64,000 nucleotides of DNA from positions 301,825 to 365,824 of the forward strand of contig NZ_BMSG01000003.1 of the NCBI RefSeq assembly GCF_014649035.1, written 5' to 3'. Below the pieces are notes generated by a model. It saw nothing but the letters and a program-made list of their open reading frames with translations, was not told where the DNA came from and searched no databases. The position numbers and the translations under genes were made by a program. The stretch is from Streptomyces sindenensis (lineage in GTDB: Bacteria; Actinomycetota; Actinomycetes; Streptomycetales; Streptomycetaceae). Below are positions 1 through 21,813 of the stretch, one piece after another. The number at the start of each line of letters is the position of its first letter. Position 1 is the first letter of the stretch.

Positions 1-619
1 AGTAGGAGGCGGCGACGGAGAGCCCCTCGGGCCCCGGCTCGTCCGGGAACGCCCAGCGGATCGGGTGCGTCACGGAGAACACCCAGCGCCCGCCGGGCCG
101 CAGCACCCGGTGGACTTCGCGGAAGACCCGCACCGGGTCGGCGACGAACGGCACCGCCCCGTACGCGGAGCAGGCCAGGTCGAAGGAGCCGTCCCGGAAC
201 GGCAGCCGGCCCGCGTCCGCCTCCACCAGGGGCAGGCCCTCGCCGATGCGCAGGGCGTGCTGGAGCTGGCGGTGGGAGAGGTCCAGCGCCACCGGGCGGG
301 CGCCCTGGGCGGCGAGCCAGCGCGAGCACTGGGCGGCCCCGGCCCCGACCTCCAGGACGTCGAGGCCCTTGAGGGAGGCGGCGGGCCCCAGGAGACCCGC
401 CTCGGCCTCGTCGAGCCCTTCCGGGCCCCAGACGAAGCGGTCGTCGCCCAGGAAGCCGCCGTGGTCGCTCTGGTACTCGTCGGCGTTGCGGTCCCACCAG
501 CCCCGGCTGGCCCGGCTGCTCTCGGCCTCGTCCGCCGCGCGGCGGGTGGCCTCCGGTTCCGGAGACTCTGCGGGTTCTCCGGGTTCCGGGGAGTAGGTCC
601 CGTGGATCTCTTGGCTCAT
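1..619 (-). CDS. Class I SAM-dependent methyltransferase (3' end outside window)
   Basis: Reading the minus strand from the ATG at 619 gives 206 codons that run off the left edge, so the C-terminus is missing. The first 40 residues are acidic and probably disordered. Motif I of the Rossmann-like fold, VLEVGAGAA, lies at about residues 88-96. It is followed by the acidic ribose-binding strand PVALDLS and a post-motif FREVHRVLRPGGRWVFSV typical of class I methyltransferases. The family transfers methyl from S-adenosylmethionine; the acceptor cannot be told from the sequence. The gene is transcribed divergently from rpsA, with about 410 bp between them. Confidence 0.85.
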   Translation of the reverse strand, partial: MSQEIHGTYSPEPGEPAESPEPEATRRAADEAESSRASRGWWDRNADEYQSDHGGFLGDDRFVWGPEGLDEAEAGLLGPAASLKGLDVLEVGAGAAQCSRWLAAQGARPVALDLSHRQLQHALRIGEGLPLVEADAGRLPFRDGSFDLACSAYGAVPFVADPVRVFREVHRVLRPGGRWVFSVTHPIRWAFPDEPGPEGLSVAASY

Positions 620-20690: not shown

Positions 20691-21422
20691 GTGGCGAAAC
20701 TCAATCAGATCATCGCAGTGGAGAAGGGCGTCAAGTCCAAGGCGCACCAGGACCTGACGGCGGCCCATCACGGCCTCCAGAAGGCCGCGTTGCTGGCCGG
20801 GATCTCCCGTACCTACCAGCCCAAGGACGAGGAGGGCGAACAGCTTCCGCCCGAGTCGACGCTGGTCCAGGTCAAGGCCGAGGACGTGCTGCGGGAGACC
20901 GCGACGACGCTGACCCGCCTCTTCGATGTGACCGCCACGAAGGACTGGGCGAACTGCTCGGCCCGGGCCGATGTGAAGGTCGACGGCCGGGTGCTGGTGA
21001 GCGAGGTGCCGGTGGCGTACCTGCTCTTCCTGGAGAAGCAGCTGACCGACCTCAACACCTTCGTCCGCAAGCTGCCCGTCCTGGACGCGGCCGAGGCCTG
21101 GGTGCAGGACCCGTCGACCGACTCCTGGAAGACCGAGCCGGTCCGTACGCTCCGCACCAAGAAGGTCCCCCGCAACCATGTGAAGGCGGAGGCCACCGAG
21201 AAGCACCCGGCGCAGGTCGAGGTGTACTACGAGGACATCCCCGTCGGGTACTGGACGACCGTCAAGTTCTCCGGGGCGCTGCCCGCGCGGCGCGTCAACG
21301 AACTGCTGGACCGGATCGAGAAGCTCCAGCAGGCCGTGAAGTTCGCCCGCGAGGAGGCCAACGGCGCGGAGGTCACCGACCAGCGGGTGGGTGATGCGGT
21401 ATTCGGTTACCTCTTCGGGTGA
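20691..21422 (+). CDS. DUF7873-type conserved actinobacterial protein
   Basis: This 243-residue soluble protein starts with GTG at 20691. A TAGCGT hexamer at 20678-20683 ends 7 nt before it, so the mRNA may be leaderless. The sequence (MAKLNQIIAVEKGVKS at the start, RTLRTKKVPRNHVKAEATEKHP in the middle, VYYEDIPVGYWTTVKFSG near the end) matches a conserved Streptomyces family that I recall as DUF7873. It has no known catalytic motif. A strong hairpin and two permuted tRNA-like elements follow immediately. A role in handling that RNA is possible but is inference from position alone. Confidence 0.7.
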   Translation: MAKLNQIIAVEKGVKSKAHQDLTAAHHGLQKAALLAGISRTYQPKDEEGEQLPPESTLVQVKAEDVLRETATTLTRLFDVTATKDWANCSARADVKVDGRVLVSEVPVAYLLFLEKQLTDLNTFVRKLPVLDAAEAWVQDPSTDSWKTEPVRTLRTKKVPRNHVKAEATEKHPAQVEVYYEDIPVGYWTTVKFSGALPARRVNELLDRIEKLQQAVKFAREEANGAEVTDQRVGDAVFGYLFG

Positions 21423-21435
21423 CCGACCATGGATT

Positions 21436-21463
21436 CCCCGGCCGCCGTCTCAGGCGGCCGGGG
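21436..21463 (+). terminator. Hairpin after the DUF7873-type gene
   Basis: A perfect 11-bp stem, CCCCGGCCGCC (21436-21446) with its complement at 21453-21463, closes a GTCTCA loop 13 nt after the stop codon. It could be the terminator of the gene or a 5' domain of the RNA that follows. Confidence 0.65.
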
Positions 21464-21506
21464 TGCGCGAGGAGCGCAAGCTGAAACTGAAGCTTGTCGT
21501 GAAGGC

Positions 21507-21578
21507 GCGGTACCAGTGGAGGTTCGACTCCTCCCTCCGGCACGGGCCGGAGTAGCCCAAGCAGGCAGAGGCAGCCGC
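21507..21578 (+). ncRNA. Circularly permuted tRNA-like element 1 (3' half before 5' half)
   Basis: Reading 5' to 3': anticodon-stem 3' strand GCGGT (21507-21511); variable ACCAGT; T-arm GGAGG-TTCGACT-CCTCC (21518-21534) with a canonical T-loop; acceptor 3' strand CTCCGGC (21535-21541) and discriminator A; a 3-nt linker CGG; acceptor 5' strand GCCGGAG (21546-21552); TA; D-arm from GCCC to AGGC (21555-21572) with a GG-containing loop; A; anticodon-stem 5' strand GCCGC (21574-21578). The acceptor pairs over 7 of 7 bases and the anticodon stem over 5 (one G-U). Order is permuted relative to a normal tRNA. No canonical U33-anticodon can be assigned. Whether it matures to a tRNA is unknown. Confidence 0.8.
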
Positions 21579-21653
21579 CGTCAATCTCAGACTCTTGCTC
21601 CAGACTCAGCATTCGCCGCCGATCGCCGGATCGAACGGGCCCGGGCCCGCGCG

Positions 21654-21723
21654 CGTCGAGATGCCGGTTCAAGTCCGGCCCGCAGAGCTCCGATCTGCGG
21701 TGGTCCAAAGGCAGGACGCGACG
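21654..21723 (+). ncRNA. Circularly permuted tRNA-like element 2
   Basis: Same order as element 1: anticodon-stem 3' strand CGTCG (21654-21658); variable AGAT; T-arm GCCGG-TTCAAGT-CCGGC (21663-21679); acceptor 3' strand CCGCAGA (21680-21686); discriminator G; 6-nt linker CTCCGA; acceptor 5' strand TCTGCGG (21694-21700); TG; D-arm GTCC-AAAGGCA-GGAC (21703-21717); G; anticodon-stem 5' strand CGACG (21719-21723). All stems pair perfectly and the loops have tRNA consensus bases. Primary sequence differs from element 1, so it is not a simple duplicate. The linker is bounded by what would be RNase Z and RNase P cleavage points. Confidence 0.82.
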
Positions 21724-21782
21724 ACATCATGACTGACCCGGACCCTTAAACGTGCCGGCGTGCCAGATGGGTGGCATTCACA

Positions 21783-21813
21783 GGGCCCGGAGGCCGGCTA
21801 CGCCTCCGGGCCC
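21783..21813. terminator. Strong hairpin between the tRNA-like elements and the aminotransferase gene
   Basis: A perfect 12-bp stem (GGGCCCGGAGGC at 21783-21794, complement at 21802-21813) closes a 7-nt loop. It lies between convergent transcription units and may end both the RNA locus on the plus strand and the aminotransferase mRNA on the minus strand. Confidence 0.8.

Follow-up and report, generated by a model that had tools for sequence, protein, structure and literature searches.

What kind of RNA, if any, is encoded at positions 21507-21578 of the Streptomyces sindenensis DNA analysed here (the window, a stretch of 64,000 nucleotides to which all positions refer), where the parts of a tRNA can be read in an unusual order? 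The initial annotation had proposed a circularly permuted tRNA-like RNA. The circular permutation is borne out by the fold and by the covariation of 48 sequences, and the element is tRNA-like as claimed, but it is not an RNA by itself: it is an optional element capping an arm of a larger predicted RNA, which further comprises a core, a hairpin conserved at the 3' end and a second permuted module that is constant. This conserved stretch of about 380 nt (21436-21813) with its two permuted tRNA-like modules begins shortly after the stop codon of a gene for a DUF7873 protein, and we regard both the fold and the link between DUF7873 and the RNA as near certain.

Two permuted tRNA-like modules in one predicted RNA

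Read from the sequence, 21507-21578 (module 1) forms a tRNA-like cloverleaf in which the 3' half precedes the 5' half. The acceptor stem, T arm and five-pair anticodon-type stem of the initial annotation can all be found there; so can the D arm, with the reservation that its stem has three Watson-Crick pairs and a C-A at the fourth position. The features of the window RNA, all on the + strand, are as follows.

21436-21463, +: 5' hairpin of 11 pairs, variable, different or shorter in relatives
21464-21478, +: small hairpin TGCGC/GCGCA, read from the sequence and present by eye in most bacterial rows
21480-21493, +: 5' strand of core helix P2, pairing with 21597-21610 and bearing module 1
21507-21578, +: module 1, a permuted tRNA-like head, optional, with covarying T and acceptor stems
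21507-21511, +: module 1 anticodon-type 3' strand, GCGGT
21518-21522/21530-21534, +: module 1 T stem, 5 of 5 pairs, loop TTCGACT
21535-21541, +: module 1 acceptor 3' strand
21542-21545, +: module 1 acceptor closing loop, A73 followed by CGG, where tRNAs have NCCA
21546-21552, +: module 1 acceptor 5' strand, 7 of 7 pairs
21555-21572, +: module 1 D arm
21574-21578, +: module 1 anticodon-type 5' strand, GCCGC, 5 pairs including one G-U
21581-21611, +: conserved core between the modules (CTCAGACTCTTGCTCCAGACTCAGC), including the P2 3' strand, from alignments
21624-21629, +: 5' strand of helix P3, pairing with 21755-21760, from de novo covariation
21637-21645, +: 5' strand of helix P4, pairing with 21737-21745 and bearing module 2, from de novo covariation
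21654-21723, +: module 2, a second permuted tRNA-like head in the same order as module 1
21654-21658/21719-21723, +: module 2 anticodon-type stem
21663-21679, +: module 2 T arm
21680-21686/21694-21700, +: module 2 acceptor stem, 7 pairs
21703-21717, +: module 2 D arm
21737-21760, +: P4 3' strand, conserved internal loop (TTAAACGTG) and P3 3' strand, from alignments
21783-21813, +: 3' hairpin of 12 pairs with heptaloop CGGCTAC (CGGMTAY in the family)

When 21507-21578 is folded in isolation the same cloverleaf is returned unprompted, yet its folding energy is barely better than that of shuffled sequences (z -1.80; 7 of 200 shuffles were as good), so that energy alone is no proof of the fold. 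The comparative evidence is stronger. The 32 sequences behind the nhmmer profile were ones already seen to contain modules, so its seeds were chosen with pairing in view; this sequence-only profile matched 238 of 251 loci, among which 31 had been retrieved by a blastn search with the RNA and another 20 selected through matches of that type. The 146 full-length matches were reduced to 63 by removing redundancy, and 47 of these together with the window make up the alignment of 48 sequences, the 16 left unaligned being 12 Streptomyces relatives and the viral loci L220, L233, L238 and L241.

In this alignment 89.7% of cells pair across the whole structure, compared with 68.5% in shuffled and 36.5-44.5% in slid versions, and 63 of the 70 pairs of the named structure have changed on both sides; compensatory changes, the absence of which the initial annotation had set as its refuting test, are thus abundant. 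When column pairs were ranked by covariation with no structure supplied, the top 29 all fell within the proposed structure: in both modules they cover the T and acceptor stems, in module 2 also the D stem and the 15-48 pair, and the others belong to helices P3 and P4, which surfaced de novo and had not been proposed before. For module 1, pairing was found in 98.8% of cells in the T stem, 98.8% in the acceptor and 98.6% in the D stem (with both-side changes in 4 of 5, 7 of 7 and 2 of 3 pairs, respectively), and the anticodon-type stem is weaker (45.5% for one pair, 73.7% for the other four). For module 2, the values are 100% in the acceptor, 99.6% in the T stem and 66.3% in the anticodon-type stem. 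The helices bearing the modules also covary, with pairing and both-side changes of 79.0% and 9 of 11 pairs for P2, 95.1% and 6 of 6 for P3, and 88.6% and 9 of 9 for P4. Indels and compensated stems in the alignment led us to reject a coding stretch.

The tertiary contacts of a tRNA are retained in module 2, where the 15-48 pair (21708-21662) is kept in all 48 sequences (UA in 41, CG in 7), 18-55 is UG in 45 of 48 and 19-56 is CG in 47 of 48, suggesting an L-shaped elbow. Module 2 stays constant across the aligned set, and module 1 is optional. Among the best 80 Streptomyces matches listed, a T arm is present at the module 1 site in 59 and absent in 18, where by eye a plain stem-loop is found instead; the remaining 3 lack the anchors and fall in neither class. 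The absence of module 1 from 18 of these best 80 loci indicates that two heads are not always needed. Two relatives (L032 and L033) carry a longer, different sequence of about 100 nt in place of module 1.

In the loops that close the acceptor stems, C74 is kept in 44 of 48 sequences for module 1 and 46 of 48 for module 2, and NCCA is encoded in 15 and 13 of the 48 rows, respectively. The base at position -1 is T in 16 of 31 viral and 5 of 17 bacterial rows for module 1, and in 25 of 31 viral and 3 of 17 bacterial rows for module 2. The closing loops of the window have drifted (ACGG in module 1, GCTCCGA in module 2), and as read from the sequence neither of its modules has the G3-U70 alanine signal. 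At the 3' end, a hairpin of at least 7 pairs with a GGnTA-type loop was found in 57 of the 63 non-redundant relatives but in only 1 of 63 control stretches; a scan for a terminator-like T run at this hairpin returned none.

The statement that no anticodon can be assigned agrees with our reading, as no anticodon loop is seen: joining the half-ends yields no 7-nt anticodon loop in either window module, and the anticodon-type ends open instead into P2 (21480-21493/21597-21610) and P4 (21637-21645/21737-21745). Because these ends open into long helices, the suggested decoding tRNA made by end-joining at the anticodon is unlikely. An ordinary tRNA was rejected, given the reversed order of the halves, the stems opening into P2 and P4, and an ARAGORN output at this locus limited to a 'tRNA-???' at 21457-21543. 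This call borrows the T arm of module 1, and it is a false tRNA in the automatic annotation. Two further overlaps of this kind occur in viral loci, one with a tRNA gene predicted by ARAGORN over the RNA itself (L159) and one in the Klebsiella phage FBKp24, in which an annotated tRNA-Sup-TTA overlaps module 2 (L068:3518-3597) and is probably a mis-call. The RNA linked to DUF7873 is one that tRNA finders miss or mis-call. A known Rfam family was also rejected, since none reaches its cut-off, and we found no description of this RNA in the literature searched.

Association of the RNA with DUF7873 in Streptomyces and in phages

The protein gene (20691-21422, + strand, 243 amino acids) matches Pfam PF25283 with 403.2 bits against a cut-off of 27. 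DUF7873 is an uncharacterised protein that is not basic (pI 6.25); structure prediction gives, at high confidence, a protein of helical and beta elements, and a comparison of this predicted fold returned no confident match. Of 7999 candidates scored, 6917 are DUF7873 proteins at E <= 0.001.

Of 295 genomes sampled from the genus, 143 contain DUF7873 and 144 the RNA (counted at E <= 1e-12, as 143 full-length matches and one partial match adjoining DUF7873 in genome G010). Both occur together in 142, the RNA alone in 2 and DUF7873 alone in 1, and the three exceptions hold truncated copies. With blastn, the stretch is seen in part or whole in 155 of the 295, a count that includes weak matches near E 1e-4. 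Across a wider sample of 296 phylum genomes, full-length RNA matches number six and coincide with the six DUF7873-bearing genomes, all of them belonging to the genus of the window. A count by model R1 has to be read with care at this level: the model, made from 32 of the 48 aligned rows, matches 105 of the 296 at E <= 0.001, nearly all of these matches being partial, and R1 alone is not specific, as matches that lack P3, up to about 52 bits, may stem from tandem tRNA pairs or from YrlA.

The association holds from either side. Starting from the RNA, DUF7873 lies upstream on the same strand in 59 of 60 matches; starting from the protein, the RNA lies downstream in 87 of 87 bacterial loci, or in 107 of 107 if one includes the 20 loci (L032-L051) that were picked by an RNA match. 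The median gap between the gene and the start of the profile match is 19 nt. A loose scan found at least one permuted module downstream of DUF7873 in 87 of 95 viral loci and in all of the 80 named Streptomyces loci (the best 80 among the matches listed), compared with 13 of 95 and 2 of 80 on the minus strand and 8 of 95 and 1 of 80 in shuffled sequences.

The genes that flank the pair in the window recur in 30 and are missing in 59 of 89 long bacterial loci, and one genome has copies near each end of a 9.8-Mb contig. Both observations fit a mobile cassette, which in Streptomyces was probably acquired and kept. In genome G088 a cobalamin riboswitch (L285:2859-3039, 86.4 bits) directly follows the RNA.

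The pair is also found in phages. A tblastn search detected DUF7873 in 73 of 50,697 phage records, of which 14 were inspected; the records are named after Vibrio, Gordonia, Rhizobium, Klebsiella, Serratia, Arthrobacter, Pseudanabaena, Rhodococcus and Microcoleus, and the carriers include phages of actinobacteria, proteobacteria and cyanobacteria. In 112 phage and viral loci with DUF7873, the RNA was found downstream on the same strand in 104 (within 1 kb in 97, farther in 1, and by model R1 only in 6, of which 4 score under 50 bits, at 29.8, 30.8, 32.7 and 46.2, a range that tandem tRNAs also match), elsewhere in 2, and not at all in 6. Two of these last six lie at contig ends; the RNA was not found beside DUF7873 in L160, L161, L181 and L216, and in L216 the stretch downstream looks coding. 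Placement is exceptional in L166 (other strand), L226 (upstream) and L063 (1.8 kb away). In L063 (3950-4159 and 5552-5910), from a Microcoleus phage, a HEARO RNA and the ORF that follows it lie between DUF7873 and the RNA and look like an insertion. No other protein family recurs beside DUF7873 in the viral loci, the best, with Band-7 included in the comparison, reaching 7 of 112. The pair is often near tRNA genes in phages, with at least one tRNA gene called by ARAGORN in 31 of the 60 viral loci tested (of 99), a count made without a control. Taken together, DUF7873 and the RNA are carried by roughly one in two of the Streptomyces genomes sampled and by phages whose hosts are diverse bacteria.

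Possible functions

Our preferred reading, which we consider about evenly balanced between right and wrong, is a ribonucleoprotein whose two tRNA-shaped heads would engage enzymes that handle tRNAs, either as decoys or as docking sites. The DUF7873 mRNA would extend at its 3' end into the RNA, as suggested by the short median distance from the gene, and the RNA, judging from co-occurrence, would bind DUF7873. The heads might be recognised by general binders of the tRNA elbow, for example RNase P, the CCA enzyme, TruB, TrmA or EF-Tu, because the UUCRA T loop, the GG of the D loop, the 15-48 pair and C74 are kept while the acceptor stems vary; this free variation argues against one synthetase as the target. 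In phages, the complex would likely serve to shield or redirect the pool of tRNAs in the face of host defences that cut them. The decoy or docking reading is favoured by the covariation in both modules and in P2, P3 and P4, the retained tertiary pairs, the constancy of C74 with T at -1 common in viral rows (RNase P prefers a T at this position), and the co-occurrence with DUF7873 in both Streptomyces and viruses. Against it stand the lack of a basic character or a confident fold match in DUF7873, the minority of rows encoding NCCA, the rarity of T at -1 in bacterial rows, the weakness of the anticodon-type stems, the absence of module 1 from 18 of the best 80 Streptomyces loci listed, the four viral loci named above with DUF7873 and no RNA, and the low scores of most R1-only loci. 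Of the options offered by the initial annotation, a mimic that binds tRNA enzymes would appear to fit best.

A related possibility, which we consider unlikely, is a tether of the Y RNA kind, with DUF7873 in place of Ro60 and the modules holding an exoribonuclease such as PNPase, so that RNA decay or repair would be steered. The order of the module is that of YrlA, and our model of module 2 matches the T-acceptor-D part of two YrlA-like RNAs beside a Ro60-type gene (49.6 and 39.5 bits); a tether to PNPase is reported for YrlA and Ro60 in PMC8394870. The proteins speak against the parallel, as DUF7873 and a Ro60-like protein have no profile homology (hhalign probability 0.9%).

The closing loops raise the question of processing. 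One could imagine, as a distinctly unlikely extension of the above, a phage and bacterial ribonucleoprotein of an undescribed class, in which RNase P would process a single transcript with two permuted tRNAs into three pieces bearing two CCA ends; held together by DUF7873, this RNA would pass as two tRNAs and seize the host's tRNA machinery. A permuted multi-piece RNA as such, in which RNase P and 3' trimming would cut both acceptor loops to leave three pieces with two chargeable CCA ends, comparable to two-piece tmRNA, seems to us quite improbable. The conserved C74 in both loops, the frequent T at -1 in viral rows, the rows with an encoded NCCA and the seven pairs of each acceptor stem agree with this reading; it is harder to reconcile with freely varying acceptor stems that show no evident synthetase identity, with the drifted loops and missing G3-U70 of the window, and with the rarity of T at -1 in bacteria.

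We give little credence to an RNA directed at the ribosome or translation, with the two L shapes entering tRNA sites, for example in hibernation or in the shut-off of host translation: one predicted RNA does carry two tRNA-like heads on separate arms, but one head is missing in those 18 of the best 80 Streptomyces loci listed. A cis-acting 3' element of the DUF7873 mRNA, sensing tRNA enzymes or stabilising the message, would account for the closeness to the gene and for the strong terminal hairpin, but is very improbable in view of the single loci in which the RNA is on the other strand, upstream or 1.8 kb away. A remnant of tandem tRNA genes, or chance, has next to no probability and is refuted by the compensatory changes, for although identical tandem genes (tRNA-Asn and tRNA-Gly pairs) give partial model matches, the outer tRNA halves are not seen at the window locus, the covariation extends across phage and bacterial copies, and P3, P4 and the 3' hairpin are additional.

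Comparison with known systems

The initial annotation had taken tmRNA as the only permuted precedent in bacteria. This does not hold, as YrlA (Y RNA-like, Rfam RF02553), the closest counterpart known for the window RNA, has the same order, namely T arm, acceptor 3' strand, closing loop, acceptor 5' strand and D arm, and YrlA-like RNAs occur in the same genus. In both systems an RNA gene is paired with one protein gene, Ro60/Rsr for YrlA and DUF7873 here, two proteins unrelated in sequence; and YrlA, too, is present in phages. The two RNAs differ in that YrlA has one permuted tRNA mimic, whereas the DUF7873-linked RNA has two, together with a long core, P3 and P4, and the CGGMUAY hairpin.

The window scores 20.8 bits against RF02553, below the cut-off of 69. 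In a relative from the genus, two YrlA-like RNAs (L284:253-358 and 513-577, minus strand) lie upstream of a TROVE (Ro60) gene (L287:1275-2858), and these also fall below the cut-off (41.2 and 31.5 bits), which may therefore be too strict for this genus. No TROVE gene was found in the genome of the window. TROVE is present in 146 of the 295 genus genomes, and its distribution relative to the RNA (both 78, RNA only 66, TROVE only 68, neither 83; P = 0.13) indicates that the DUF7873 RNA is independent of TROVE, with 66 of the 144 RNA-bearing genomes lacking it.

In PMC8394870, the tRNA mimic of YrlA is described as consisting of D, T and acceptor arms, as modified by DusA and TruB, and as tethering Ro60 to PNPase. 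PMC7790460 suggests that the tRNA-like domain of YrlA might competitively inhibit an anticodon nuclease, an idea of the same kind as the decoy reading favoured here. The DUF7873-linked RNA would thus be partly Y-RNA-like in its working, and we do not file it as a Y RNA.

Permuted tRNA genes of algae and archaea resemble the modules in having the 3' half first and a short joint at the acceptor end. These genes mature into decoding tRNAs; here, in contrast, each anticodon-type stem leads into a long helix, with no sign of an anticodon loop. Permuted or two-piece tmRNA shares a permuted tRNA-like part and a possible RNase P site in the closing loop, but unlike tmRNA the modules have a full D arm and no G3-U70. 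At the Rfam gathering score no tmRNA was found in the window, and none over the DUF7873-linked RNA in 20 loci, which contain two elsewhere. The same 20-locus comparison at gathering threshold gave no match to GOLLD or ROOL, structured phage RNAs of unknown function that, according to PMC12286853, are often near tRNA islands; the same source states that ROOL has no known protein partner, unlike the RNA described here, which adjoins the DUF7873 gene.

Another tRNA-like RNA with a dedicated protein, linked to Band-7/SPFH and found in RNA-repair settings, was reportedly described by Burroughs and Aravind in 2016, and the likeness lies in the combination of a tRNA-like RNA with its own protein. In the Rhodococcus phage NiceHouse, a Band_7 gene (L060:4374-5246) lies about 0.6 kb after DUF7873.

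To our knowledge, permuted protein-bound tRNA mimics are otherwise known only from Y RNAs with Ro60. The DUF7873-linked RNA represents a new family, likely a ribonucleoprotein, related in principle to the Y RNAs. A second family of permuted mimics, with two mimics per RNA, a sequence-unrelated protein and a spread in phages, suggests that such mimicry evolved or was taken up again on more than one occasion and that it is useful in phage-host conflict. The family also provides a lead to the function of DUF7873.
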